From: Owenia fusiformis
Lineage: Eukaryota > Annelida > Polychaeta > Sabellida > Oweniidae
Direction of reading: 5' to 3'
Length of the DNA stretch: 64,000 nucleotides
Assembly (NCBI GenBank): GCA_903813345.2
Contig: CAIIXF020000005.1
Coordinates: 5,545,375 to 5,609,374 of the forward strand
Both the position numbers and the translations under genes were made by a program. Positions within the stretch are counted from its first letter, which is position 1. Every line of letters begins with the position of its first letter. Positions 34,258 through 59,219 of this stretch are shown here, piece after piece. A model generated the notes under the pieces. That model saw only the letters and a list, made by a program, of their open reading frames with translations. It did not search any database and was not told where the DNA came from.

Positions 34258-37200
34258 TTATACACTTCTCGGTTTAAAAATCTTAATTAGAAATCTCTTG
34301 ACTAAATTGTCAAAGACAATTCCATTAGCTTGCCCCCAGTCCTCAAAGATTACATCACCTAACATGCAAATAAGTTTTCTCCTTAAATTTGAGGATAAAA
34401 ACATGGAGCTTAATTCTCTTGGACATTTGGACTCAATATCAAAATAAAATCCTGATCTCTCTTTAGTAAAGGCGGGGCATTCTAGGAGTCTATGTGTGAT
34501 ATCATCTTTACATTTACAATTACCCAACTTACAAATCCCATCACTTTTATTCCATCTTTCGTAATTAGATTCTAAACAAAAATTATTTGTCCTGGCCAGG
34601 AACTTCAGCTTGGCTCCATAAAAATCATTGTCATTTTTTAAATAGTTTTCAATCTTAGGGTGAATCTTCAGTGTCTTATAAAAGTCAAGCGAAGGATGTT
34701 CTGTCATGCTATCAAAAAACCGTTCTGTATTTTGTGTTTTACTTATTGACTGATATGCATTATACCAGTTACTGTCTTGTCTGAAAATAACATCATCTAA
34801 CCCTTTGTTAATCAATGAATTACGAATGTTGGAAACATATTTCCAGTATGATTCTTTTCCTGAAATATATGATTTAAGAAGGGATTCAAGAATACGGTGT
34901 GATAGAGAGCATTTGTGTAATTTATGTTTCAGGTAAATAAAATAGTCGACTTGTCTTTTTTCCGTTATTTCCAAAATAGAAGACCAGCCCAAGTCACCAA
35001 TCAAAGCTGACTTAGCTGGTTTACATTTGATTTGCATGACTGACTGGGCTACTTTATATTGGAAAGATTGGAGTTTACTCTTGGCATTTTCAGAAAGCAC
35101 CCATGTGCCACATCCATGTAAAATGGCAGGTTCAATCATTGAACTATAAATTGTTGATCCAAATTCTATCCTTTTTATGTTGCAGTGTTTGGATAATGTC
35201 ATTGAGGCATAATTTCGCATTTTAGTGGCTTTTTTTGTCAGATATTCAAAATGGGCATTTTCTTTCAGGGATCTATTTATCATTATACCTAGGTATTTAT
35301 ATTCATTCGTTTCTGGGAGCTTTAGATTTCCAAGATACCACATTTTTCCAGGATCAAGCCTCTTACCAATAACCATTACTTTTGACTTTTTTTCACTAAA
35401 TTTGAAACCCCATTTCACTCCAAAATTATTTACGGTATTAAGCATACTTTGTAATTCCTTGTCTGATTGTGCCATTAAAACAATATCATCAGCATAAAGT
35501 AAACAGGGGATATTCTTATCATCGAAAGGGATTCCTGCCTTGGAGTTGCTCAAACTGTCAATTAGATCACCCATAACAATAGTGAAAAGTGTTGGTGACA
35601 AAATACATCCTTGTTTCACTCCCACATCTGAATTAAACCAGTCAGTTGTATATTGGCCAAAAATAACTTTGTTCTTTATATTTGAGTAGAGTTCTTTCAT
35701 TAATCTCCATAATTTCCCTTGAATGCCTTTTTCCCATAGCTTCAAAAATAGTAGGTCACGGTCTAAAACATCAAAGGCCTTTGATATATCAATAAAAGAA
35801 AGGTACGTTTTAAGTTTGAGATCTTTTCTAAGGCTACATAAACCTTTAAGTGTGAAAACATGGTTCTCAAGCCGCTTTCCTTTTTGAAAAGCACCCTGTA
35901 GATCACCTAATAGATCATTAACTTGGAGATATTTCATAATTTGTTCTTCTAAAATACTTGAAAAAACCTTATACACATTAGATGTTATAGTAATTCCCCT
36001 ATAGTTGTTAAAAACTTCTGGATCCCCTTCTTTAAGTAAAGGCTTAATGATTCCTTGTTGCCACTCCTGTGGGACGGTCTCAAATGTTTTAATGACATTA
36101 AACAAATCAAAAAGGGGTTTTAAAATAATTTCATTCCCCATTTTCAAAAATTCATTCGGTATTTGATCAATCCCTGCAGCTTTCCCATTGTTAAGACACA
36201 AAAGATGTTCACGGATTATTGACTTTTCAAAAGATATACCAATAAGGGCATCCTCTGAAATCTCATTTTTAGATTCTAATAACTTCACTTTGTTTACAAG
36301 GGATTCATTGGTTGCTTCAGGATTTCTATTGTTTTTACCAACACTTTTCCAATAATTTTTCAGGGTCTCATTAACTACTTTAGGGTCACAAATAACTTTT
36401 TCTGGGTCCTCCGGGTCTTTCATTCTAATTGGAAAATTTGATTTTTCATTGAATTTCTTAAGGGTCTTCCAAAAACCCTTAGATGATTTTGATTTAAACT
36501 TAGCATTTGAAGTTATTACTTTAATATGGTTTTTGGTTCTATTTGATTTAATTTTAAGACTAACTTGAAGCTTGCGATCTTGATAAGTATCCCACAATTC
36601 CTGTAAAATTTCAGGGCTGGCATTTTTAGATTTTGACCATAACCTGTGTAACTTGTTAGCTTGTTTGCGGTCCTTAATAAGTTGTTTCAGTTCATCATCC
36701 CAGAAATCTCTGGAACTCATGGTAATATGTTTCTTTCCAATTGCTGTGTTTCCAGCATTTAATATTTTGGTTTTAAAATTAGACCATATCACTTCAATGT
36801 CGTCAAATGGGGTATTGATTGACCAATCATCAAATTCTTTTTGTAATTCAAATTTAAAGGTAGTCCAATCTGTTTCTTCACTTATATTCCATTTTGAATA
36901 GGCTACTTCGTTAGGTGAATTGATTTTTAATGGTTGGGTAGGGGTAGGAGTCAAAATAGATACAGTGATCACATTGTGGTCACTACCAATAGAAAAACAT
37001 TTGTCTTCATCAACAATCATACGATCAAAAAATTTCATAAAATGGTCGTTAGCTAAAACATAGTCTATAGTTGAGTGTTGGTCATTTCGAGACCATGTAA
37101 TCTGACCTTTACATTTCTCAGAGCAATTTAAAACATTAAGATTAGAGACCTCGCAAAATAGTTCCAATAGTTCCCCATTTGGGCTTTTTACACTAGACTT

Positions 37201-37800
37201 TTTAAATTTTTCTAATTTTCCATTAAAGTCCCCCATAATTAGTACAGAATTACTCTGATCTATAGAGGCGTAGTTTTGCATCATTTCATCGTAAATTGAT
37301 TGGGTTGCTTCCATGTTTTTACCATCACAGGGAAAGTAGACAACACATACAAATGTAATTTCATTCTCAACTTTTAACTTTAGCCAATACCTTTCAATGT
37401 TATCATGTTTTGAGTCAAATAGATTGTCATTTAGGATTACAACATCTTTATGAATGAGAAAACCAATTCCTCCACCTTCTTTATGCTGCCTATTCTTACC
37501 TTTCCAGACATAGTCATCATTTACCACAGTAATAGAATTGGTATCATTAAAGAAGGTTTCTCCAAGTGCAAAAATTTTAAACTGTTCATTTTTAAGTAGA
37601 TTGTCCATTTCAATTTGTTTGGCAATACCAAACCTTTGGCAGTTATTATAAGCGATTTTGATGTTAGAAACCTGAGACAATTTACGTTTACCACGTCGAT
37701 GATGTTTATGGCTTTTCTTATTGAAACTAGATTTGGTGATGTTGGCATGATTAGAGTGTTTATTTTGAACTGGGGGTAAGGCTTTCACATAGCCAAGTTC
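34258..37800 (-). CDS. LINE ORF2: APE-type endonuclease and reverse transcriptase
   Basis: About 1180 codons with no internal stop. Counting from the GTG at 37788, the endonuclease domain (about 41-285) shows YNNCQR, GETF, IMGDFNG, IDYV and GSDHN. The reverse transcriptase (about 530-830) shows FIDISKAFD, GVKQGCILSP and the catalytic LLYADDIVLM. The C-terminus has a CKLGNCKC...H..LECP zinc-binding-like cluster. It copies element RNA at nicked target DNA. There is no ATG before the endonuclease: the first in-frame Met lies about 60 codons in, after the first catalytic Asn, and the frame is continuous with ORF1 except for the TAG at 37801-37803. Translation by stop readthrough or reinitiation is therefore inferred. 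Confidence 0.93.
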   Translation of the reverse strand, partial: ELGYVKALPPVQNKHSNHANITKSSFNKKSHKHHRRGKRKLSQVSNIKIAYNNCQRFGIAKQIEMDNLLKNEQFKIFALGETFFNDTNSITVVNDDYVWKGKNRQHKEGGGIGFLIHKDVVILNDNLFDSKHDNIERYWLKLKVENEITFVCVVYFPCDGKNMEATQSIYDEMMQNYASIDQSNSVLIMGDFNGKLEKFKKSSVKSPNGELLELFCEVSNLNVLNCSEKCKGQITWSRNDQHSTIDYVLANDHFMKFFDRMIVDEDKCFSIGSDHNVITVSILTPTPTQPLKINSPNEVAYSKWNISEETDWTTFKFELQKEFDDWSINTPFDDIEVIWSNFKTKILNAGNTAIGKKHITMSSRDFWDDELKQLIKDRKQANKLHRLWSKSKNASPEILQELWDTYQDRKLQVSLKIKSNRTKNHIKVITSNAKFKSKSSKGFWKTLKKFNEKSNFPIRMKDPEDPEKVICDPKVVNETLKNYWKSVGKNNRNPEATNESLVNKVKLLESKNEISEDALIGISFEKSIIREHLLCLNNGKAAGIDQIPNEFLKMGNEIILKPLFDLFNVIKTFETVPQEWQQGIIKPLLKEGDPEVFNNYRGITITSNVYKVFSSILEEQIMKYLQVNDLLGDLQGAFQKGKRLENHVFTLKGLCSLRKDLKLKTYLSFIDISKAFDVLDRDLLFLKLWEKGIQGKLWRLMKELYSNIKNKVIFGQYTTDWFNSDVGVKQGCILSPTLFTIVMGDLIDSLSNSKAGIPFDDKNIPCLLYADDIVLMAQSDKELQSMLNTVNNFGVKWGFKFSEKKSKVMVIGKRLDPGKMWYLGNLKLPETNEYKYLGIMINRSLKENAHFEYLTKKATKMRNYASMTLSKHCNIKRIEFGSTIYSSMIEPAILHGCGTWVLSENAKSKLQSFQYKVAQSVMQIKCKPAKSALIGDLGWSSILEITEKRQVDYFIYLKHKLHKCSLSHRILESLLKSYISGKESYWKYVSNIRNSLINKGLDDVIFRQDSNWYNAYQSISKTQNTERFFDSMTEHPSLDFYKTLKIHPKIENYLKNDNDFYGAKLKFLARTNNFCLESNYERWNKSDGICKLGNCKCKDDITHRLLECPAFTKERSGFYFDIESKCPRELSSMFLSSNLRRKLICMLGDVIFEDWGQANGIVFDNLVKRFLIKIFKPRSV

Positions 37801-39339
37801 CTAGTGATTGTTAGGCTGAGAATTAGTGGGGCACTTTGAAAGTTTATGTCCTAGTTGGTTGCATCCATGACACCTAACTGAGTTTGGATGCCAACATGTA
37901 CTGGCTAAGTGACTACTCTCACCACATTTGAAGCAAGATGGCTTATTGACATTCCTTCTATTAGAACTAGGAGTATTGTCATTAAGTGAGGGTGGTGAGG
38001 GGTTTTTAGGGTGACGTCGCCGATTGACAGTCTGCCATTCATTCGCTTCGGGTGGGTTCTGTGAGGTGGTATGTCGGGGGAAACGGGGCCAGGGCTTTGT
38101 CACATCTTTCGATTTTGTGTCTAGTTGCATGTTACGGGCAAGGCTATTGGTACCAGCCTTCGAAAGATGTAGGCCTTTATTGTCAAGAAAACCTTCGTTT
38201 ATTGTACCATCTTGAAGACGGAAAGTTTTGTCGTTGTTGATGAATGTCATCTTATTATCGCCTTCGCAAATCACTTGGAGTTCAGCATTAACGGCCTCAA
38301 GTACCTGTTGTGCATGCTCATTGTCAGTGCGAGGACAGATACTGGAAATGCATACCTCATCACATACAGATTTGGCACAGGTAGCTAAAAGTTTGTATTC
38401 TTTAGTGATAGGCTCAGGTGTGGAGTCTTTTTTGGCACAGTCATTGCTTGCAATCTGGATAACAATGCGTTTGTACTGGTTCTTATTATTAGCTTGGCCC
38501 AGTTTTGATAAATGTTCATTCACATCTGTGATTTTTCCACCACTTATACATACAGTATCAGTGTTGTTCATTTTAGACTCATCAAAGTCCCTTATTATGG
38601 AGCTCCCAATTACAAGTGTTTTATTATGTTCGTTTTCATGCAATGATGATTTGTGGTTGTCTATAGTCTTTCGTAGTTTGATACATTCATTGTCTAGGAC
38701 CCTACATTCTGCGGTTTTTGCAGCTAATTGTGAGACAAGATCTACATTCGTTTTCTGCATGGCACTGAGATCAAATTGGATAGAGGTCAAGTTTTCTTTT
38801 AGGTCAGTTACTGTCGAGTTCAGGTTTTCTATGCTGCCTTTCATTCCTGCTACCATAGATATTAGTGTATCATATTGCTTTGTTGTGTCATTTGTTTTTC
38901 GGCGTTTGGGAGGTGAATAGTCATTTGTTGCTTTTGGTTTAGGTAGGCGTCCCCTGTGTTTTGGCTTAGCATGCGATTGTGGTATTTTCAGTGCTTTTGG
39001 CGTTGTACGGTTCATTGTGCGTTTGGAGCGTCGCACTGTATTCACTGGTGTATTGGAGGCATTTTTAGTTGGAAGTTGCAAAAGCACTTTGGGGTCTGTT
39101 GTGGAAGTATTCAAGTCATTGTCAGAACCCGGGGAAGGTGACATGATAGGTGTTGGTTGGCTACCTGGTCCATGTAGGGTTTCAGGCCCATCAGGCCTTG
39201 TTGGTGTACTATGGTTGGAGGATATGGTATTAAAACTATCGTCATGTGCATCTTGAGATGGTCCCTCTAGTAGATTCACATCAGCAGTTGAAACATCATT
39301 CATCAAATTGTTCTGTGACCTACTTAGGTTGGTTGCCAT
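37801..39339 (-). CDS. LINE ORF1: coiled coil, SGNH-hydrolase-like domain and CCHC zinc knuckles
   Basis: 512 aa from ATG 39337-39339 to TAG 37801-37803. The N-terminal 100 residues are Ser/Thr/Pro-rich and low complexity, followed by a basic stretch (about 100-150). A coiled coil spans about 160-240. A domain beginning VIGSSIIRDF (about 245-400), with the later ASND and the GLHLS segment, resembles the SGNH/GDSL esterase fold known in ORF1 of several LINE clades. Two zinc knuckles follow near the end, CFKCGESSHLASTC and CHGCNQLGHKLSKC. The role is RNA binding and RNP assembly. A + strand 230-aa open frame at 38228-38920 is an antisense shadow. Confidence 0.88.
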   Translation of the reverse strand: MATNLSRSQNNLMNDVSTADVNLLEGPSQDAHDDSFNTISSNHSTPTRPDGPETLHGPGSQPTPIMSPSPGSDNDLNTSTTDPKVLLQLPTKNASNTPVNTVRRSKRTMNRTTPKALKIPQSHAKPKHRGRLPKPKATNDYSPPKRRKTNDTTKQYDTLISMVAGMKGSIENLNSTVTDLKENLTSIQFDLSAMQKTNVDLVSQLAAKTAECRVLDNECIKLRKTIDNHKSSLHENEHNKTLVIGSSIIRDFDESKMNNTDTVCISGGKITDVNEHLSKLGQANNKNQYKRIVIQIASNDCAKKDSTPEPITKEYKLLATCAKSVCDEVCISSICPRTDNEHAQQVLEAVNAELQVICEGDNKMTFINNDKTFRLQDGTINEGFLDNKGLHLSKAGTNSLARNMQLDTKSKDVTKPWPRFPRHTTSQNPPEANEWQTVNRRRHPKNPSPPSLNDNTPSSNRRNVNKPSCFKCGESSHLASTCWHPNSVRCHGCNQLGHKLSKCPTNSQPNNH

Positions 39340-40767
39340 AAGTAATCGCTAATCAGGCTTAGTTCTGGTTTTTAATGATGTAAGAGTTCAATAATAGCCA
39401 ATATCTGCAGCACTGGGTTTTAGTCAAGGGGGTGTGAAGTACCATATACCTGTAGTATATTAGCTAGTTAGCCAATTAGTCCTGTGTATGTGCCAAGCTG
39501 TATATAATGTTTTAGAATCCACTCCAAAAATATCCAAAAATGTTGATCAAATATCACTTCCAATATAAAATATTTTTTCAAATAGAGTTCATGTTCCTAT
39601 CTGTTAGGAATTCCTATAGTTCTCTGCTAATTTATTTGCTGCAACCTTTCTTGGTTTTACTTATTTTCATGAATAAACAGGAGCAAATTTTTTGTGACTT
39701 GCTACTCTGATTGCTACTACTCTCCAGACTACTACTACTCTCCAGATCCAGATCACATACCTTTTAACATTTTAATTATGATATCTATGCAGTTTTAATT
39801 TCATAATAGAATGCCTATCAAAGGGGGAAATAACACAGAAATAAAAGATTACATGGAGAGTAAATCTACAACTTACTTGTGTCCTTTAGAATCAAATCTC
39901 AGAGTTGAGTGTCAGAGTTTGGAAATAAAGATGGAAATAAATTACCATTTATAATAACATTAATATTACATATTGGACCATTGTTATATCTTCCATTATA
40001 ATAACAGATATTAATGCCAATGCAGTGGATTGATTTTCATTGATATTATGATATCTTGACCTGACAGCTTGCATTCCCCGGCAAGTGTCCGAGTTATGGT
40101 AATAGACTTTATCCTCAAAGAAAACACTGTTTCGTTGTACTCGACGGTGTCCTTCCACCATCTCCAGACAGACGGTTGAATAACTAATCTCTACTTTTAC
40201 TACTGAGGGTGTTAGTTGCAGCTAAAGAATGACCATCCAATTCCCTAAGTACACACTCAAGAAGGCACTTACACTGTTAATTGAATATCATACAATATCT
40301 CTGTTTATACTATTTTCGATAAATGAATAAATGAGTGTACTCCATCTAGTAGTCGATAGATCGTGACTCAATATAACACAACAATTGAATATCCCATATT
40401 CGATAGTGAAAAGCCCATATACGGACAGAAAGAAAAACATTTTCACTAGATTATAAATGAAAAGTTCCTGGTATAAGCACTGCCATTTATTCTTATTTCT
40501 GACATTATCAGTAATATTCTCGTCACATCATCAGTCTTCTGATTTGAAAGTGTTTGTTTTTCATGTGTTGGATATGCAACTGTATAGATCAATGTGTTTC
40601 GTGGGTTTCTAAGTTTTTTGGGGGGAACTAATTCGTATAATTATTGGTGAACAATTGAAACCTACGTCATTTCATTGACATTGCAATTCATGTCATTTTA
40701 ATGTCTCTATAATCAACTCAATCATACCTTCTTTACGATCATAACAGATCAATATTAAGAATGCGGG
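39340..40767. other. Possible LINE 5'UTR, then intergenic
   Basis: The first few hundred bases probably belong to the LINE 5'UTR. A CTACTACTCTCCAGA-type short repeat lies at 39700-39750. The rest is AT-rich without supported genes. Confidence 0.35.
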
Positions 40768-42278: not shown

Positions 42279-42319
42279 CAAATGCAATAACCAATTGAAG
42301 GATTTGGCTTATCGGGAAA

Positions 42320-43360
42320 ATGAGCACAACGGCTGACCCTAATGCGACAGCCGATGATGGTGGTGGTGGACCGCCAATTAACTATTCAGATGCAGAGCGT
42401 ATAGCTCTTGGATTCTTCCTCATCCTCATTATATTTGTGACATTCTTCGGGAACATGTTGGTTGTCATCGTCTTCTGTCTGTTTAAGAATCTCAGAACAA
42501 TGACAAACTATTTTGTGGTGTCATTAGCCGTGGCGGACATGCTCGTGGCAGCGTTGGTTATGCCATTTGGAGTTTATCAGCAAGTGAACAATACATATTG
42601 GCCACTTGGAGATATTGTTTGCAAACTGTCAATATGTTTTGATGTCCTGTTCTCCACATCTTCTATACTTCATTTATCCTGTATGGCAATGGACCGTTAC
42701 TTTGCTGTGTGCGATCCGTTCCATTACCATGAAAGAATTACGCAACAATCAGTTGCTATTATGATAGCTGTTTGCTGGACATTGCCTTGTTTTATATCAT
42801 TCTTACCTATACTCATGGAATGGAACCTCATTGGCATCGAGGACATATTTGCTGCGATGGTGCCACCTGATGGGACAGCCTGTATGTTTATCGTAAACAT
42901 ACCATATGCATATGTTTGTTCCTGTATTGCATTTTACATTCCAGTTATATTCATGACAATAGTTTACATCAAAGTTTTTATGGTAGCTCACAAACAGGCA
43001 CGTCAAATTCGTGCCATGGAACTTGCATCTGGTATGGGCAAGGGGAAGGGACCTAAATCAAGTGAAAATAAAGCTGCTGTGACACTTGCTATCATTATGG
43101 GTGCATTTTCTATATGCTGGTTCCCATTTTTCATAAACAATCTTGTTGGACCAGTTATAAACTATCAAACTACATTTATCGGGGACATGATTGTATTATG
43201 GCTCGGTTGGATCAATTCAACGTTGAATCCATTTCTATACTATGCATTCAACTCAAATTTTCGGAGAGCTTTCAAATATGTATTGTGCTGCCATAAATGT
43301 AGAGGACAAACACCTCGGGAATACCACACACAACAAACAGCCATATCTGATCAGTATTAA
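42320..43360 (+). CDS. HTR4-like: 5-HT4-like biogenic amine receptor (class A GPCR)
   Basis: 346 aa in one exon with seven membrane spans. Class A landmarks are present: N45 in TM1, D73 in TM2, C101 paired with C188, D108 in TM3 (the amine counter-ion), DRY 125-127, CWFPFF with W267 in TM6, and NPFLY 303-307 in TM7. The best family resemblance is to the serotonin 5-HT4 receptor. It shares TNYFVVSLA.AD in TM2, FISFLPI..EWN.IGI into loop 2, the NIPYA..CS..AFYIP run in TM5, and LWLGWINS.LNPFLY. 5-HT4 receptors couple to Gs and raise cAMP; that coupling is inferred here. Other Gs-type amine receptors (H2, trace amine) are less similar. The N-terminus has sequons NATA and NYSD, and the C-tail CCHKC suggests palmitoylation. 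Confidence 0.88.
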   Translation: MSTTADPNATADDGGGGPPINYSDAERIALGFFLILIIFVTFFGNMLVVIVFCLFKNLRTMTNYFVVSLAVADMLVAALVMPFGVYQQVNNTYWPLGDIVCKLSICFDVLFSTSSILHLSCMAMDRYFAVCDPFHYHERITQQSVAIMIAVCWTLPCFISFLPILMEWNLIGIEDIFAAMVPPDGTACMFIVNIPYAYVCSCIAFYIPVIFMTIVYIKVFMVAHKQARQIRAMELASGMGKGKGPKSSENKAAVTLAIIMGAFSICWFPFFINNLVGPVINYQTTFIGDMIVLWLGWINSTLNPFLYYAFNSNFRRAFKYVLCCHKCRGQTPREYHTQQTAISDQY

Positions 43361-43577: not shown

Positions 43578-44545
43578 TAATAATTTTTATAAATTGTGTT
43601 TTAATATCTATCAATATTATCATACACTTTGATTTGCTCTCTTTACGTCATTCGTCAAACTTGTCCCTGGCATTGTACTTCGCATGGAAAAGAGATCGCA
43701 TATGAAAGCTTATTTTTGTGGGTCTCGACGATCATCGACCAGTGTCAAAATATATTTAAGTTTGCTGGATATGTCATCAAGACTAGCATACATATATTTT
43801 TATTATCTACAAAGACACCCCCTGGATGGACATTATTTCAGCTGATATTCCTCATTAAACGTAGTGAATCTTGAAAATCTATAAGTGGGACTCCTTTTAT
43901 TACCCTGCGTGCAGAGTCTAGTTAAAGAGTGAAGACGAAGCTCTCTTTTAAGAAGTGAAGTCAAACGAATGCAAAGGGTACCTTTTATAGAAGTTTTGAA
44001 CTGAATTTACACTTCTTGATGCTGAAATTGAGAGTTTATCCATACATTTTAAGAAAATAGGTATGTCAAAGAATATGTTAAGCCAAACATTGACCTGATA
44101 CCTCAGAAAAAATTAAAAAAACTCAAATTTTCTCTCTACAGTCCTTGTTGCCCCTTTAACGCAGAATTTCATTTCATGAAGCACTTTTTAAGGTTTTTGC
44201 AAAACTGCCTGACAGTATTAGGATGTATCCGAATATGATGAACTTAAGATTACATACATTTGGCAGTACTATGAATCTTGGATTAATTTATATAGAATAT
44301 ACACAGAACAATACATACTATACGAAGAATTGTTACCAGTTGCATTCAGAATAAGGACTGCAACATGTACGCCATCTATTAAACCCAAAACATTACAGTT
44401 ACATGTACAAGTTTCTTCTCAACAAGCAATTCGCAATTAGATGACATAGGGTAATGCTACTCATTCGTTGTTGTTAAAAAATCGTTAAATGTTGCCCCGT
44501 CAAAAGGGATGCAATGTGAATCGAGTGACAATTTTAATTTATTGT
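43578..44545. other. Intergenic between convergent genes
   Basis: The + strand receptor and the - strand BTB gene converge here. AT-rich, no repeat or gene seen. TTTATT hexamers at 44538-44556 can serve as polyadenylation signals (AATAAA on -) for the BTB gene. Confidence 0.4.
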
Positions 44546-44701
44546 GCATTTTATTTTATTCAAATAATAAATGTATGAATAACAAGAAAATATATATTAG
44601 TTTGTGATCAAGCAGTGCTACTTCATCATCGATGATTTTCACCCTAGTTAACGCATCACACATGTAAATCAAGCATATTAAAGTCACTTTAACACTTGAC
44701 A

Positions 44702-46626
44702 TTAGTATCTTTTCTTATACACCAGTTTCATAAGATATTGTCGGAGTCCTTCGATTTGGTAGTATTCCGCCTCTGTAAGTAGTTCCCTCCATACATTCTC
44801 GTTCTTCGGAAGAGTTCCCTCCTGGACTCCTCCATCGCGTAGATAGTTGAGTATGTATCTACAATCGAACAATATCCTATTATAAGGTTTCATAACATTT
44901 ATTGTACATTTGAAAAACAACATTTTATTCGCATTCTACTCCTAATATACTCATTACGATTATGGTATTTATGGTATTTACTTGTTTCACATATTTCAGT
45001 CTCACCTGAAATGAGTTCCGTCTCTGTCGATAAAATGGCTTCCATCTTTTTCCTCTTTCAAACGATGTCTTCCACTAAACATTGCTGCCAACATTGAATC
45101 TGGGTCCTTAGTTAGAGTCATGACAGATGTGGTGAAAATGTGGCCACCGATGTCCAATTTGATGCGACTGTCTTGAATCGCATGTAGCTCGGCCATGTTC
45201 TGCAAATACGAAACAGTTAGAAAAATAAAAACACAATGATAAATATCATACTTTTTATCGGCCATGTTCTGCAAATACGAAACAGTTAAAAAATAAAAAC
45301 ACAATGATAAATATCAAACTTTTTATCGAAAACCTAAAGTGATTGCAAATTGATTTATCGAGCAAGATCAAATCTATGCCGGCCTGCCCAGACGGACGGA
45401 CAACGAACCGGCCGGCCGACCGACGGACCGACCGACGACCACGCACCCGCCAGCCAGCCAGCCATCACGCATTTCTGATTACTAATACTTGACATCAGTT
45501 TTACTAGGTATACATATATAGATCCTTTATAAACTGTACCTACTTTCAGTTCAGTATCAAATGTTGTCCTGTCTTCTATGAGCTTAGCACGAGCAACCTC
45601 CAGAACTTCCCATTGTTTAGTGAGCTCTTCTTTTCTTGATTCACAATCTTTTTGAAATTCTCTTACGTTATGTTCTTGTCTCTCTAAGTCTCTCTCTAGT
45701 TTTCTTTCACGTATCTCTAATTTCTTCAGCTTTTCAGCCAGCTTTTCTTCTTCCTTGTTTAGAGATTTGTCTTTGTGTTCAAGAACGCTTTGTTTCTCCG
45801 CAATGAAATCTTTACCCTTATCTAGAAATGTATTGAAGTTTGTATGGAGTTTTTCCAGAAATGTTTTCCCTAGGGCGTCGATTTCATTATGTATGTCTAG
45901 TTCCCAATTCGTCGTCACCTCTTCAAATATGCTGTGATCACAGAGTTTTCCAGTCGCATTCTCTTGAAGCTTTTGAGCGTGAGCTGGGCGATTTCGCCAT
46001 ACTTCATCAGGATCACGTATCTCGATAGCCACGGCAGAACGAATGAAGTCAGAGTCTATCATCAGTTCCTTCCCGATTGCCTTGTCCCTGTTGAACAAGG
46101 GTTTCCACAACGTGTCAGTCTCCATACATTTACCCCATAATCTGGTGCATTCATCAGTTTTGATCGAATATAGTTGTCTCAGCCTGAACTCAACATGTCC
46201 TACTTTTTCTAGTTTGCTAAATTTTAGCACGTGGGTATCTGCAACGACAGAATTAGCCTTACCACTTTTGAAACTATTGAGATTAGATTCCAGCTCATAT
46301 TTGCCACCGTACGAATAGACAACCTTCTTTGTGATTTTATGACCATCCGTAAGCCCATACCATTGCAAGAGCAGTTTCCATGCATCTTCGTGTATTGGGT
46401 CTATGCTGTGGGAAAATTCCTTTGTGGTTATGATGGGACCAGGGGTCGCCCGATCATGGTAGTATTTTCTCAATGACACAATCCCGACATAGCGTTTCCA
46501 TTGATTCAGCCAATCTGCAACGATTGCGTACCAGAAATCCCCTTCGACATAAGGTTTCGAAAGAAGGGGCTCGATAATTGCTTTTTGTGCATTGGCATCT
46601 GGAGGGGAAAGTGATGATGTTGCCAT
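44702..46626 (-). CDS. DUSP-UBL-coiled-coil-BTB (KCTD-type) fusion protein, 3 coding exons
   Basis: Exons on the - strand: 46626-45544, 45199-45006 and 44858-44702 (phases 0 and 2), giving 477 aa. Residues 30-90 resemble the DUSP domain of USP4/11/15-type deubiquitinases (FWYAIVADWLNQWKRYVG, TPGPI, DAWKLLLQWYGL). Residues 100-205 resemble their adjoining ubiquitin-like domain (TRLWGKCME, PLFN). A charged coiled coil occupies about 275-360. Residues 372-476 are a T1/BTB domain of KCTD type (IKLDIGGHIFTTSVMTL, DGSHFIDRDGTHFRYILNYLRDG). There is no protease domain. KCTD BTB domains usually oligomerise and often bind cullin-3, so a ubiquitin-ligase adaptor role is inferred. A 5'UTR acceptor (TTTTTTAG, 46641-46648) precedes the ATG. 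Confidence 0.85.
45200..45337 (-). repeat. 69-bp tandem duplication containing the 3' splice site
   Basis: The segment GTTCTGCAAATACGAAACAG plus AAAAATAAAAACACAATGATAAA occurs twice in tandem, at 45197-45255 and 45266-45323, with few differences. Both copies carry the acceptor TTTGCAG followed by AACATGGCCG. The distance is 69 bases, so both acceptors give the same reading frame. Confidence 0.85.
45375..45470. repeat. GC-rich CGAC/CAGC short-repeat patch
   Basis: Within intron 1 of the BTB gene: GGACGGAC, CCGGCCGGCCGACCGACGG, CCGACCGACGACC and CCAGCCAGCCAGCC. It contrasts strongly with the AT-rich surroundings. Confidence 0.8.
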
Positions 46627-47446
46627 GGTACCGTGTCATCCTAAAAAATAAAAAATGTAATTGTTTGTTCTAAATGCACTTTATTGGTAATAATTTATAA
46701 GTAAGTGCAAGCGTTACTTCCTGTTGTTTGCGATGCTTCAAAGCGGTACATGCAAAAAGATGGAACTGTTACTTTTTGATGATGCAGGTTTTGTGCTTTT
46801 TGTGATATTGCCCATAGACGACTTTAAATACCACCCTCTGCAGTGTCATGACTACTGAATGTCTTACGGAGGAATGGTTTTGCTGGTTGGCTATCAGTTG
46901 CGGTTGCCATGCCAACAGATGATACAATCTTATAAAAAACAACTTAGCCCCCTATATTCTGACTTATCCATGCTAGACTGGTGAATCATCTAACAAACTA
47001 GCATCAACAGATCAACCATTAGTCAATTCTATAAATATCCAAACGTCTGTATAATACTCGAAGTTCAAGTTTGTTTGTGGTAGGCTATCCGATAGTCATA
47101 CTTAGTTGGTGTTATGATGTATTCCGTTTGTCACAAAAGGCAACATGTACATACAGTGACAACTAAACAAAGTTAAATCCAGTAAATGTACGATACATTA
47201 CAGTACCATCTTTTATTTTTAGTTAGCGAGAGAGACGTTACGCACAAGTAAAATACTAAACAAGCTCAGTCTATTCATATAGGCATACATTCACCGATTG
47301 AGTAGATCAGATCTGAAAGAAGCAATTTATTTTTATTTCCAAGATGAATACATGAACAAGACGCTTATAGGCAAATCATACATAAGCAAATTGGAGCAAC
47401 CAAAATATGCATGCACATAACAGCATAATATGTATATTTAACTTAC

Positions 47447-49233: not shown

Positions 49234-52200
49234 TTATTGATTTTGAGTATTGGTATTTGAAGAACTGTTAAGAATGAATTTTGACTGTTCCACCGTAGGT
49301 AAAGGCACGTTGGTGTCATTTGAATCATTATTCTGGCCCTCTATTGGCTGGCTTTGCATTTCAATGTCTGAATCTCCATTAGCATTTGCGCTATAGTTCC
49401 GTGTGTTGTGTTCATTACCTAATATACGCTGTCGTTCACTGTTATCGCCATCTATATTCAACAAATCGTTACAATGATCAACATTATAATTCCTATAAAT
49501 CCATCGTCTCAGTTTGTACAACAAGAAGAGAACGCATTGAATTAGTGTGGCCCCTACGAGGCCCATTGCACACGTAATGGCCGCCGTAAAGGGATACGTC
49601 CAATCCATTGTGTTATATGCGTAGTGCTTTCCTTCGTATCCCATTCCATTATTGAGGAAATATAAAGCATTGAAGACTATGTATACTGCAGCTATAAAGA
49701 GTGGGTAGACAACATGGAAGAGTCTTATTGGCACAGCCTGTATCATGATATCAATCAGTACAAAGACAGTGTTCAGAGTATGTTTCACTCTACTCATTGG
49801 AGTCATCAGCACCTCTGGAATATATACGTGATGATTAGGACCTATAGATAATTTGACAGCTTATTTATATGTATATGCGAATTTTGCGTTCTTCAAATGT
49901 TTCAAAGGATTCCTACCAAAACACTTTGAGAAAATGTTCCCTTGTCTTTACTGATTATGCATTATCAACGTTTTGAGTCTCGTCAGATAAATTAATTTAA
50001 CGAGACTTAATGTCAAGGTCATAGCTTACCACCATCGTCGAAGGACACTAGGAATGTCCAGAATGATATAGTGACAACAAGGGCTGCATTAGAGACGATG
50101 TTATACAACATCCAGTGTATCATGATAGACCAAGGCATATTGTCCGACCCTAACTCCAAACCACAATCATCTGAAATAGCATGAGATCAACTTTATTTAC
50201 TTCATCTTGTGTTCCAGTGAAGCACGGGCGACCATTAATTACGTTTTCTCCCTCATGGGCATAAGGGCGGTAGAAATATTTTTTAATAAAGAGAGCATGG
50301 CAACGAAGAGAAGTTAATAGAATCTATCATTCTGCCATCTTTGTATCGTCCTAAAACCTAAGGTCTAGCTCATAGGGGTGTTGGCTTAAAATGACACGAT
50401 TAGACTACATAGGCGTTTAGGATGTCTGACTCAGGCCAAATTTTATCAGAAATAACAATGCGCGACATTGTTATTGGCTTGTTCAACCAATATCGCACAT
50501 TTATAATTTCCAATAAGTTACCAGAAGCAATGCCGGTGTAATTAGCGTAATAAGCACAAGTTGATAGTGGAATACTAGTCCAAATATCCATACATTGTGT
50601 AGGATGCAGTAATGTGTTGAAAAATGCATGTTCTATCAGGGTATCATCATAACCGCTTTGGAAGTTAATTGCAATGACATCTATACGATGTGTATTGAAT
50701 GACATCCACAGCGCATGAATGAATGCAACTGAAGCTGGGTTTAATACCAATACGTAGAAATATATTTGTGACAATGAATGGTTGGAGAGGGTTAGGGGGT
50801 ATTGGATATTTTTGTTTTGTGGTAGATGACAGTTTTGGATATTGGGGTTTGCTGGTTCTTGCCTTTTATAAATCTTTATTTTTCTTGCTGCTAGTATTTT
50901 CTCGCTTCTCAAATGTTCCAATACAATAAATATCATTGTACACACCCGTACCAGTAGTACACATTTATATTTAATAACGCAGCTGCAATGACTTGTGGTT
51001 GGGTTTAACCATCATCTGTTCTGATGGTAAATAATCTAGATCTGTACATTATACATACGAGATAATAAAGTTGAAAATAGGTGAAAATACTATGTGAGAC
51101 TATGCTATAGTTGTTTGATGTGCTTGATTTGGTTTGGTGAAATTCGTTATCGCTTTCCATCAAATAACGTAGAACCACGCTGTCGACAGTTTACAATTTA
51201 TGAGAATCTGCCACTATCAGCACTTTTTCTGTAATCGCGTTAATAATTTTCTTCCATGAATGGCCAAAGAATTCATATCATTTTTTGTCATCTGCATTTT
51301 GCCTTTGTGTTATTTCAAATGCATTTGTACTTGCGTTGTTTTGCAATTCAAATGCTGAGACTAACATAAAACCATGAAAGTATACTCTCTTACAATTTTG
51401 AAATATTTAAATATAGATAGACCCTCTAATATTTTTTGTTTGAGATATACTTATTCATTCTAATATCCAGTCAGGCTCGTAGCCAGGGAGAGCCTGGGGA
51501 GTGGAAGCTCCCCCCCCCCTCGGCCAGAAATTCCTTCAAATTCATGCAGTTTTCACCATTCTGAGCACTTTTTGCATGTATTTTTAGCCGAAGGTGAAAA
51601 AACTTCTCTTTGGCAAAAGCTCCACCTCCTGCTGGTTTCCTGGCTACGGGCAAGCCATTGTACAACACTTTCTCACAATTATAATATTTTGAAGAATTCC
51701 AAAATGCTCACCTTTTCCATCTTTCTTAGTTTTACAATAATAGTACACAACTAGGATGGCATTGTACATGTTGCTTATTCCCAGTAACATAAAGCTCCAG
51801 TTGGTTGCGTATATGAACCAAACTTCTGGGTGCCCGACGTAGAACTCGTTTGCCTCCGTGTATATATCCATGGCAACCCATACAATGAAGCCCACGCCGA
51901 CTACCACTCTGTAGACACAGTACCATAGTTGAGGTATGGGCCACTGGAAAAAATATGGTCAACAATAATATCAAGTAAAATGTATGAGAATGGTGTTGTA
52001 ATCAGTTCGAGGACGAAACTACAATTCAAAAACAACGAGGAAAAAATTTAATTAACCATTTTTGTAAGAAAATATCAGTACTGAAAAGACCGATTCACAA
52101 AGAAATTGAAGAGGCCAAGGCCCATTGAAGAGGTCATTCATTTGAGGTTAATAAAAGGTCAAATCTGAACTAAATTGAGGTCATTGAAAGGTCAAATCTC

Positions 52201-57864: not shown

Positions 57865-59112
57865 TTAAAATTGATCATTTTCAGTATAAGCATCGTCTCT
57901 ACGGGATGTGTATCCATGTTGTGATCTCGGCTTCATTAACGTCTTGCGGAATGTCTTGCAATAAGTAATATAGACAGTCGGTGTCACGGCTACTTGAATG
58001 TAAGTCAGCCACGTAGCAACTGATATAAATATATCCGGGATAGATTGCTCACTGGCCACATCGAAGAGATACCAATAATTCATCACCATGTAGGGTCCCC
58101 ATAGTAAGATGAATGTACCAGTTACCAGGAGAAACATCCGGGTGAGTTTCTCATTTCGGCGTGCTTTGTATTGTCTCATTCTTGTCTGGGTCGCCTGTGG
58201 AATGGCCTGAAGTGCTATCACTCCTCGATTGGTTGGCATTCGTACCCCAAAACCGTTCAGCCATGTCGCTACTGCTTGCGCATTTGCCCCTGGACCGAAG
58301 AAATTCCAAGTCGAGCTTCTCATTGGTAAATGTCCAAGAGGACGCATGCGTCGATGCGCACGCATAAATTGGAATATCCGAAGATAGATGCAAAAAACTG
58401 ATGTTAGAATGACAAGGTAAATTAACATAAACCCTAATGTGTCATTGTTCTTGTAATAGCGATGCTCAAAAGTACACTGTGCCTCCAATTTCACGTATCG
58501 ATACGTCCCCAAACCAAACACCGGTGGGAATGCCATCATAAAAGACATAAGCCAACATATGACGACCAAGATCACACAAGCTACACCCTTTAATCGTTTC
58601 TTGTGGAACTTGTGGTGAAGTACTGCAACGTGTCTATCAACTGCAATAATGAACAAACCAAACAGAGCACCGAAGATAAACAAGGTATTTGCAAAAGCAA
58701 GGAGGGTACAACCCTCAGTGCCAAATACCCATTCGTATTTATTGAGCATGGTTACAAGAACGAACGGGATACATAGCGTTGTCCTCAACAAAATAGCAAT
58801 TGATAAGTTCATCATGTTGTAGAAAGGAGATCTATGTAGGCTCGTATTTCGTATTGTGTTGACAATGACAAGCAAATTAGACGCCACGCCCGTTCCAATA
58901 ATCAGCACGAGGATGAGACAGCTGAGCACCGGAACCTCAAGTTCGTTTTCTACATCCATTTTCTCGGTACTCACATCGTATGTTACGTTAACAAGCACAC
59001 TCGCGTCTGTGCTGACAGCCACAGCGACGTAGGGAGGTGGCGGGTCCATTGTTCGGTTTGCGTGGTCCATTATTGGCGCACTATCAATTAATGTCTCCAT
59101 TTTTGAGCTCAT
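57865..59112 (-). CDS. SREB-family-like orphan GPCR (GPR27/GPR85/GPR173-like)
   Basis: 415 aa from ATG 59112-59110 (or 59100). The frame is open further up to a GTG at 59166 and then meets a TGA. It matches SREB receptors in TLHRSPFY at the TM1-TM2 turn, MAFPPVFGLGTY and CTFEHR..KNNDTLGFML in TM4-TM5, and WNFFGPGANAQAVATWLNGF (about 269-288) in loop 3, then LLWGPYM in TM6. These very conserved vertebrate SREB receptors are mostly neuronal and have no established ligand. Oddities: the TM2 acidic position is Ile, DRY is DRH (159-161), and NPxxY is TPTVY (377-381). Cys135 and Cys213 can form the usual disulphide. A TTTCCAG acceptor 5' of the ATG (about 59210) suggests a spliced 5'UTR. Confidence 0.85.
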   Translation of the reverse strand: MSSKMETLIDSAPIMDHANRTMDPPPPYVAVAVSTDASVLVNVTYDVSTEKMDVENELEVPVLSCLILVLIIGTGVASNLLVIVNTIRNTSLHRSPFYNMMNLSIAILLRTTLCIPFVLVTMLNKYEWVFGTEGCTLLAFANTLFIFGALFGLFIIAVDRHVAVLHHKFHKKRLKGVACVILVVICWLMSFMMAFPPVFGLGTYRYVKLEAQCTFEHRYYKNNDTLGFMLIYLVILTSVFCIYLRIFQFMRAHRRMRPLGHLPMRSSTWNFFGPGANAQAVATWLNGFGVRMPTNRGVIALQAIPQATQTRMRQYKARRNEKLTRMFLLVTGTFILLWGPYMVMNYWYLFDVASEQSIPDIFISVATWLTYIQVAVTPTVYITYCKTFRKTLMKPRSQHGYTSRRDDAYTENDQF

Positions 59113-59219
59113 CTTTTGTCCAGTAAAAACCACTCCAGGTTGTGTTGAACGTGTTTCATGCCACACGTAACTCGGTCATATTTCTGTCCAATTTCTGGAA
59201 ATGACAAAAGTGTCGTATT

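Follow-up and report, generated by a model that had tools for sequence, protein, structure and literature searches.

A candidate gene of Owenia fusiformis joining a USP4/15-type DUSP–ubiquitin-like head to a KCTD-type BTB domain

A 64,000-nucleotide stretch of DNA from the annelid Owenia fusiformis (hereafter the window) carries on its minus strand, at 44702-46626, three exons that splice into one open frame of 477 amino acids, in which a deubiquitinase-type head is followed by a long predicted helix and a KCTD-type BTB domain. Judged from its sequence, this fusion is a real and clearly bounded gene candidate; its order of domains is striking, and one of its splices, the first, is unproven. 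Our main reading, to which we assign a probability of about one half, is that the 477-residue product of this single gene acts as a substrate adaptor of a Cullin-3 ubiquitin ligase and binds its client through a deubiquitinase head put to new use. According to this proposal, an old, intron-free DUSP-UBL copy would have come to lie ahead of an exon for a KCTD BTB and been spliced to it in frame; the BTB domain would assemble, probably as a pentamer, and bind the N-terminal region of CUL3, as its contact residues suggest; the long helix would space the heads apart and aid their assembly; and the heads would bind a client that the complex would then ubiquitinate. Against the adaptor reading stand the location of the BTB domain at the extreme C-terminus, the shifting heptad register of the helix, the AATAAA hexamers in intron 2, a first join that no homology spans, and a start codon of exon 2's own, from which the BTB domain might be translated by itself, in addition to the fusion or in its place.

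Domains, gene model and splice joins

An hmmscan search of the 477-residue protein against Pfam placed all three domains above the Pfam cut-offs. The DUSP domain (PF06337) occupies residues 29-103 (46318-46542, minus strand; E 2.7e-9; 37.8 bits, cut-off 29.3) and was recovered at 39.7 bits in a six-frame scan of the genome. The USP4/15-type ubiquitin-like domain Ubiquitin_3 (PF14836) follows at residues 132-192 (46051-46233, minus strand; E 1.5e-5), barely over its cut-off with 25.3 bits against 24 and scoring 28.1 bits in the genome scan, and the KCTD-type BTB_2 domain (PF02214) covers residues 374-464 (44744-45163, minus strand, split by intron 2; E 4.4e-20; 72.3 bits, cut-off 21.4). No Pfam family reached its cut-off in the stretch that separates the ubiquitin-like and BTB domains. 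In phmmer searches of PDB sequences, residues 10-185 match the DUSP-UBL of human USP15 (E 1.5e-17) and residues 8-170 match USP4 (E 5.5e-17), in alignments that include the segment before the DUSP domain and continue through the ubiquitin-like domain; the tail of the protein matches KCTD7 (E 7.8e-20), which together with the BACURDs provides the best PDB matches. The sequence-only reading had proposed a DUSP and UBL head of USP4/15 kinship, a coiled coil and a BTB domain of KCTD kinship, in that order and in one frame, and had called for profile searches for DUSP, ubiquitin-like and BTB_2 domains; all three profiles pass, the DUSP match falling where given above, and Pfam and phmmer agree on the order and on both kinships. 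The absence of a protease, also claimed there, holds as well: hmmscan found no UCH protease domain in the fusion protein, and none of the at least 84 UCH matches in the genome lies in the 64-kb window. Lacking that domain, the fusion is not a deubiquitinase.

The exons and joins deduced earlier, with phases 0 and 2, were reproduced at their exact coordinates on the minus strand, and every splice site is GT-AG. Exon 1 (46626-45544) is an uninterrupted run of 361 codons that holds the start codon, the DUSP domain, the ubiquitin-like domain and the long helix; its own frame has no stop, compared with 23 and 32 for the remaining frames of the same strand, and so many open codons would be expected by chance at its base composition with a probability of about 2e-11. 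Intron 1 (45200-45543; 344 bases, phase 0) separates it from exon 2 (45199-45006), which encodes the first portion of the BTB domain, and intron 2 (44859-45005; 147 bases, phase 2) leads to exon 3 (44858-44702), which supplies the remainder of the BTB domain, 13 more residues and the stop codon. A candidate polyadenylation signal follows at 44543-44560 (minus strand), where AATAAA occurs twice, 141 and 158 bases past the stop. The start codon lies at 46626 in the context ACCATGG, and an in-frame TGA at 46638-46636 upstream of exon 1 fixes it there. Immediately before exon 1, and ahead of that TGA, is an acceptor-like site (46636-46641, minus strand), a pyrimidine run ending TTTTTTAG with its AG at 46641. 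An out-of-frame upstream ATG at 46639 on the same strand opens a short frame overlapping the start of exon 1 (46626-46639) and might lower translation of the fusion. Elsewhere in the window, two rhodopsin-type receptor frames (42299-43357, plus strand, and 57868-59175, minus strand) give a 7tm_1 match without introns, and part of a gene of the "rolling stone" (Rost) family lies at 49237-49860 on the minus strand.

The two joins differ in what bears on them. The second falls within Arg426, and the BTB_2 score rises from 40.8 bits for exon 2 alone (genome scan) to 72.3 bits for the joined protein, so that homology itself supports this join. The first has no homology across it, and we know of no protein that spans both of its sides. 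It is moderately supported by its splice signals (a GTAGGT donor, a pyrimidine-rich acceptor and a branch-like CTAAC site 20 bases before the AG), by compatible phase, by the lack of a poly(A) hexamer and by a predicted helix that reaches residue 360. A search of the 344 bases of intron 1 for AATAAA or ATTAAA found neither, and intron 2 has two AATAAA hexamers. The earlier statement that chance stitching is unlikely can thus be kept in full for the second join, where homology bridges the BTB domain, and only moderately for the first, on signals, phase and helix. The region of the exon 2 acceptor is itself duplicated in tandem (45191-45328, minus strand; period about 69 bases), and a second acceptor at 45269, in the region duplicated at exon 2, would add 23 in-frame residues if used.

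It is at the first join that a different account of the locus has to be weighed, in which the BTB exons are expressed mainly alone, from a promoter of their own upstream, as a protein of 115 residues starting at the exon 2 ATG, while the exon for the DUSP-UBL and helix is expressed either on its own or together with them, and little or none of the joined protein is made, much as at a KCTD1-like locus. Exon 2 begins AACATGGCC, which provides an in-frame ATG in good context directly ahead of the BTB domain; the exon 1 frame remains open for 63 more codons into intron 1, so that an unspliced transcript would give a protein lacking the BTB; and vertebrate KCTD1 is reported to make both a long grafted isoform and a BTB-only isoform (PMC3212892). 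On the other hand, the acceptor and branch-like site that precede exon 2 imply that some upstream sequence is joined to it, and on that strand no open exon lies closer than exon 1; intron 1 also has no poly(A) hexamer. We consider such split products somewhat unlikely, and retain the spliced 477-residue protein as the preferred product.

Origin and state of the deubiquitinase-type head

A separate USP4/15 gene lies on the same contig as the fusion, about 10 Mb away. Its DUSP-UBL is spread across six exons (five introns), with the protease Cys-box on the exons that follow, and the equivalent stretch of the fusion is a single exon. The fused head is 31.5% identical to this gene in one form (form A, 203 positions) and 32.2% in the other (form B, 202 positions), and 32.9% and 35.8% identical to human USP15 (173 positions) and USP4 (162 positions), respectively, whereas the genome's USP4/15 and human USP15 share 57.6% identity over 191 positions. 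Equally low identity to worm and human USP4/15 (31.5-35.8%) implies a head that is either old or fast-evolving. We considered and rejected the idea that the head was retrocopied recently from the USP4/15 gene of this genome, the identity of 31.5-32.2% being no higher than that to human USP15 and USP4. The head is probably an ancient copy of a USP4/15-type DUSP-UBL that was retroposed or stripped of its introns; retroposition is suggested solely by its lack of introns, and intron loss from a whole copy is a possible alternative.

The equal distance of the head from its worm and human relatives, with the fast evolution that it may reflect, also lends something to the suspicion that the locus is a pseudogene or an artefact of the gene model. 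We find this scarcely credible: 361 codons run without a stop, all splice sites are GT-AG, the domain cores are intact, and the BTB domain has kept 48-50% identity to human KCTD7 and the BACURDs.

A search of this genome for a second head-plus-BTB copy found none; its 12 protein-search matches (E<=0.01) comprise 3 from the fusion gene and 9 that have the BTB domain only. The genome scans gave five DUSP matches, of which the fusion gene accounts for one, and two Ubiquitin_3 matches, the fusion and the USP4/15 gene. A scan of a prokaryotic genome collection for relatives gave 13 pattern matches, with 0 confirmed, and is uninformative on animals.

Several other elements were observed alongside. 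A LINE-type retrotransposon (34261-39348, minus strand), with adjacent frames of 515 and 1180 amino acids, the second carrying endonuclease and reverse-transcriptase domains, stands roughly 5 kb from the fusion; we draw no tie between it and the event that copied the head. Forkhead matches, 38 in all, fall on 9 of the 12 large contigs of the assembly (C1, C3, C4, C5, C6, C8, C9, C10 and C11), which agrees with the 12 chromosomes, nine of them bearing 35 Fox genes, reported for Owenia fusiformis (PMC9539403), although the paper numbers those nine 1, 2, 3, 5, 6, 7, 8, 11 and 12; a search for COX1 in the assembly found none. The USP4/15 gene has two alternative exons of equal phases (C5:15710605-15710749, 145 bases, and 15711289-15711430, 142 bases) each encoding its own version of the DUSP-UBL linker and of the start of the ubiquitin-like domain; they look mutually exclusive, since joining both breaks the frame. 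In another USP gene, at C9:8171950-8173628, a 150-base unit is repeated head-to-tail 11.2 times with 95% matches, each unit carrying a USP Cys-box segment inside one 666-codon open frame, which from its sequence appears to be an amplified protease exon of that gene.

How far the head has drifted varies along its length. Region by region, within limits that we set ourselves, its identity to USP4 is 8/24 before the DUSP domain (9/24 for the genome's USP4/15), 16/34 in the DUSP core (27/36), 4/16 plus 14 gap columns in the loop after the PGPI motif (16/29), 8/15 in the last part of the DUSP domain (6/15), 6/23 plus 3 gap columns in the linker between the DUSP and ubiquitin-like domains (17/26), and 16/49 in the ubiquitin-like domain (28/49). 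By this comparison the head retains the DUSP core, and the linker is poorly kept. The DUSP-UBL of USP4 is reported to bind partners, and SART3 to bind its DUSP-UBL linker (PMC7935551). The suggestion in the sequence-only reading that the fusion borrows a spliceosome-binding surface is not supported, though it is not disproved: in the very segment that SART3 is described as binding in that source, the fusion matches USP4 at 6 of 23 positions. The head could still hold clients through surfaces other than the linker.

Ten positions of the USP4 DUSP-UBL (24, 40, 51, 88-92, 134 and 136) lower activity when mutated, on our interpretation of PMC4243247. The fusion is identical to USP4 at 3 of them (88, 89 and 134), in an alignment that is uncertain for the loop 88-92, where there is a 14-column gap, whereas form A of the genome's USP4/15 is identical at 5 and has similar residues at the rest. 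R40 has become D, reversing the charge, and Y136 has become N. Loss of such residues counts against activation more than against binding, and the drift of the head at the protease-activating surfaces fits a head that has been kept for binding alone.

These positions also bear on whether the protein might act as a decoy, its head competing for USP4/15 partners or binding the USP4/15 catalytic unit in trans so as to inhibit or recruit it. The USP4 DUSP-UBL is reported to work in trans and to bind an insert of the catalytic domain (PMC4243247), and the genome does contain an intact-looking USP4/15 gene. The lower count of activity positions in the fusion than in the genome's own USP4/15, and the changes at R40 and Y136, weigh against such a role, which we judge highly improbable.

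The helix, the BTB domain and its cullin-3 contacts

A continuous helix is predicted over residues 231-360 (45547-45936, minus strand) in an AlphaFold2 model of exon 1 run on the single sequence without an alignment, of mean pLDDT 50.4, in which the helix alone is confident. Its pLDDT is mostly above 78 from residue 251 and exceeds 90 across most of the second half, and the DUSP-UBL part (residues 1-237) stays below 50. Hydrophobic periodicity peaks at 3.54 residues over residues 286-361, a peak reached by 4 of 2000 shuffles, and at 3.52 over residues 286-373, which span the first join (3/2000); residues 231-290 peak instead at 3.70 (2/2000). The best local heptad register shifts toward the first join. 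The predicted helix is probably a coiled coil.

Over some 90 positions the BTB domain is 48-50% identical to human KCTD7, BACURD1 and BACURD3. Overall sequence similarity is reported to be unable to separate Cul3 binders from non-binders, most Cul3 contacts being attributed to a variable loop of the BTB domain (PMC10856315); in our alignment this loop has no insertion in the fusion relative to KCTD7 or the BACURDs. The same source gives eight Cul3-contact residues of KCTD7 (R65, D74, M76, M80, R84, H85, D98 and Y131), lists KCTD1 and KCTD15 as validated non-binders, and names KCTD6, KCTD7, KCTD13 and TNFAIP1 as binders (PMC10856315). Seven of the eight (D74, M76, M80, R84, H85, D98 and Y131) are kept in the fusion, where M397 and R405 stand for M76 and R84, R65 being replaced by S. 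The binders BACURD1 and BACURD3 keep 6/8 each, and the non-binders KCTD1 and KCTD15 keep 2/8 and 3/8. Among seven other KCTD-like BTB domains of the genome that were compared, one of which has no letter at position 65, a BACURD-like domain keeps 6/8 and the others between 1 and 4. Those that we judge to be KCTD6/21-like keep 3-4/8, and the list of Cul3 binders in the same source includes human KCTD6 and KCTD21 (PMC10856315); the low scores of the KCTD6/21-like domains indicate that the contact-residue test misses some binders. By its residues the fusion BTB looks like a Cul3 binder, and the idea of a cullin-3 adaptor, raised as a possibility in the initial reading, is supported as a reading by the seven KCTD7-type contacts.

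The same counts argue against an account in which the BTB domain is an assembly platform only, as in KCTD1, KCTD12 and KCTD16, which recruits no CUL3 and clusters the DUSP-UBL heads into a high-avidity scaffold. Several KCTD BTB domains are reported to assemble without binding Cul3 (PMC10856315), and a long predicted helix adjoining the BTB domain could drive assembly; still, 7/8 contacts would be a high number for a domain of that kind when the non-binders keep 2/8 and 3/8, and we regard the account as unlikely.

The adaptor reading can be carried one step further, to what would amount to a sign-inverted deubiquitinase: with the protease swapped for a CUL3-recruiting BTB domain and the USP4/15-derived head kept, the ligase would ubiquitinate the very clients that USP4/15 cleans, and the two genes would compete for one surface and set client levels between them. 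We offer this extension as a doubtful one, well below the adaptor reading itself.

Comparison with known systems

Like USP4, USP15 and USP11, the fusion has a segment before the DUSP domain, a DUSP core with the PGPI motif, and a ubiquitin-like domain, in equal order. Unlike them it has no protease, the helix and the BTB domain standing in place of the catalytic domain; it has lost 14 alignment columns in the DUSP loop after PGPI, and its linker is divergent. It differs from the genome's own USP4/15 in having its head in one exon rather than six. With KCTD7 and the BACURDs (KCTD13, KCTD10 and TNFAIP1) it shares a BTB domain, at the 48-50% identity given above, in which the Cul3-contact residues are kept. 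In Plasmodium Kelch13 a coiled coil precedes the BTB domain. The BTB domain of the fusion, like that of Kelch13, is of KCTD type (PDB 4yy8 was matched at E 3.9e-15), but Kelch13 has a Kelch propeller after its BTB domain and no DUSP-UBL.

We know of no described protein that combines a DUSP-UBL with a KCTD BTB domain, and a literature search found nothing on such a fusion among the titles and abstract openings listed, predicted-protein databases lying outside its scope. Ubiquitin writers and erasers are normally made from different parts. If the adaptor reading is true, the client-binding part of an eraser can serve again to the opposite effect once it is set on what is likely a writer's recruiting domain; the fusion would provide a direct route to the clients of the USP4/15 head, and would be nature's own equivalent of the adaptors engineered for targeted degradation.

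KCTD proteins are generally described as having an N-terminal BTB domain followed by a C-terminal domain (PMC13361646), unlike the fusion, whose BTB domain takes up residues 374-464 of 477 and ends the protein. The closest parallel in mode of origin is KCTD1 isoform b, whose BTB domain is reported to have gained a single-exon domain upstream while a BTB-only form remains (PMC3212892). The fusion resembles it in being a single-exon foreign domain grafted before a KCTD BTB domain, with a possible BTB-only form. The two differ in that the graft of KCTD1 isoform b is given as a Crypton recombinase domain (PMC3212892) and its BTB domain as a non-binder of Cul3 (PMC10856315). Together with KCTD1 isoform b, the Owenia candidate would make two cases in which a KCTD BTB domain has gained a single-exon domain on its upstream side.
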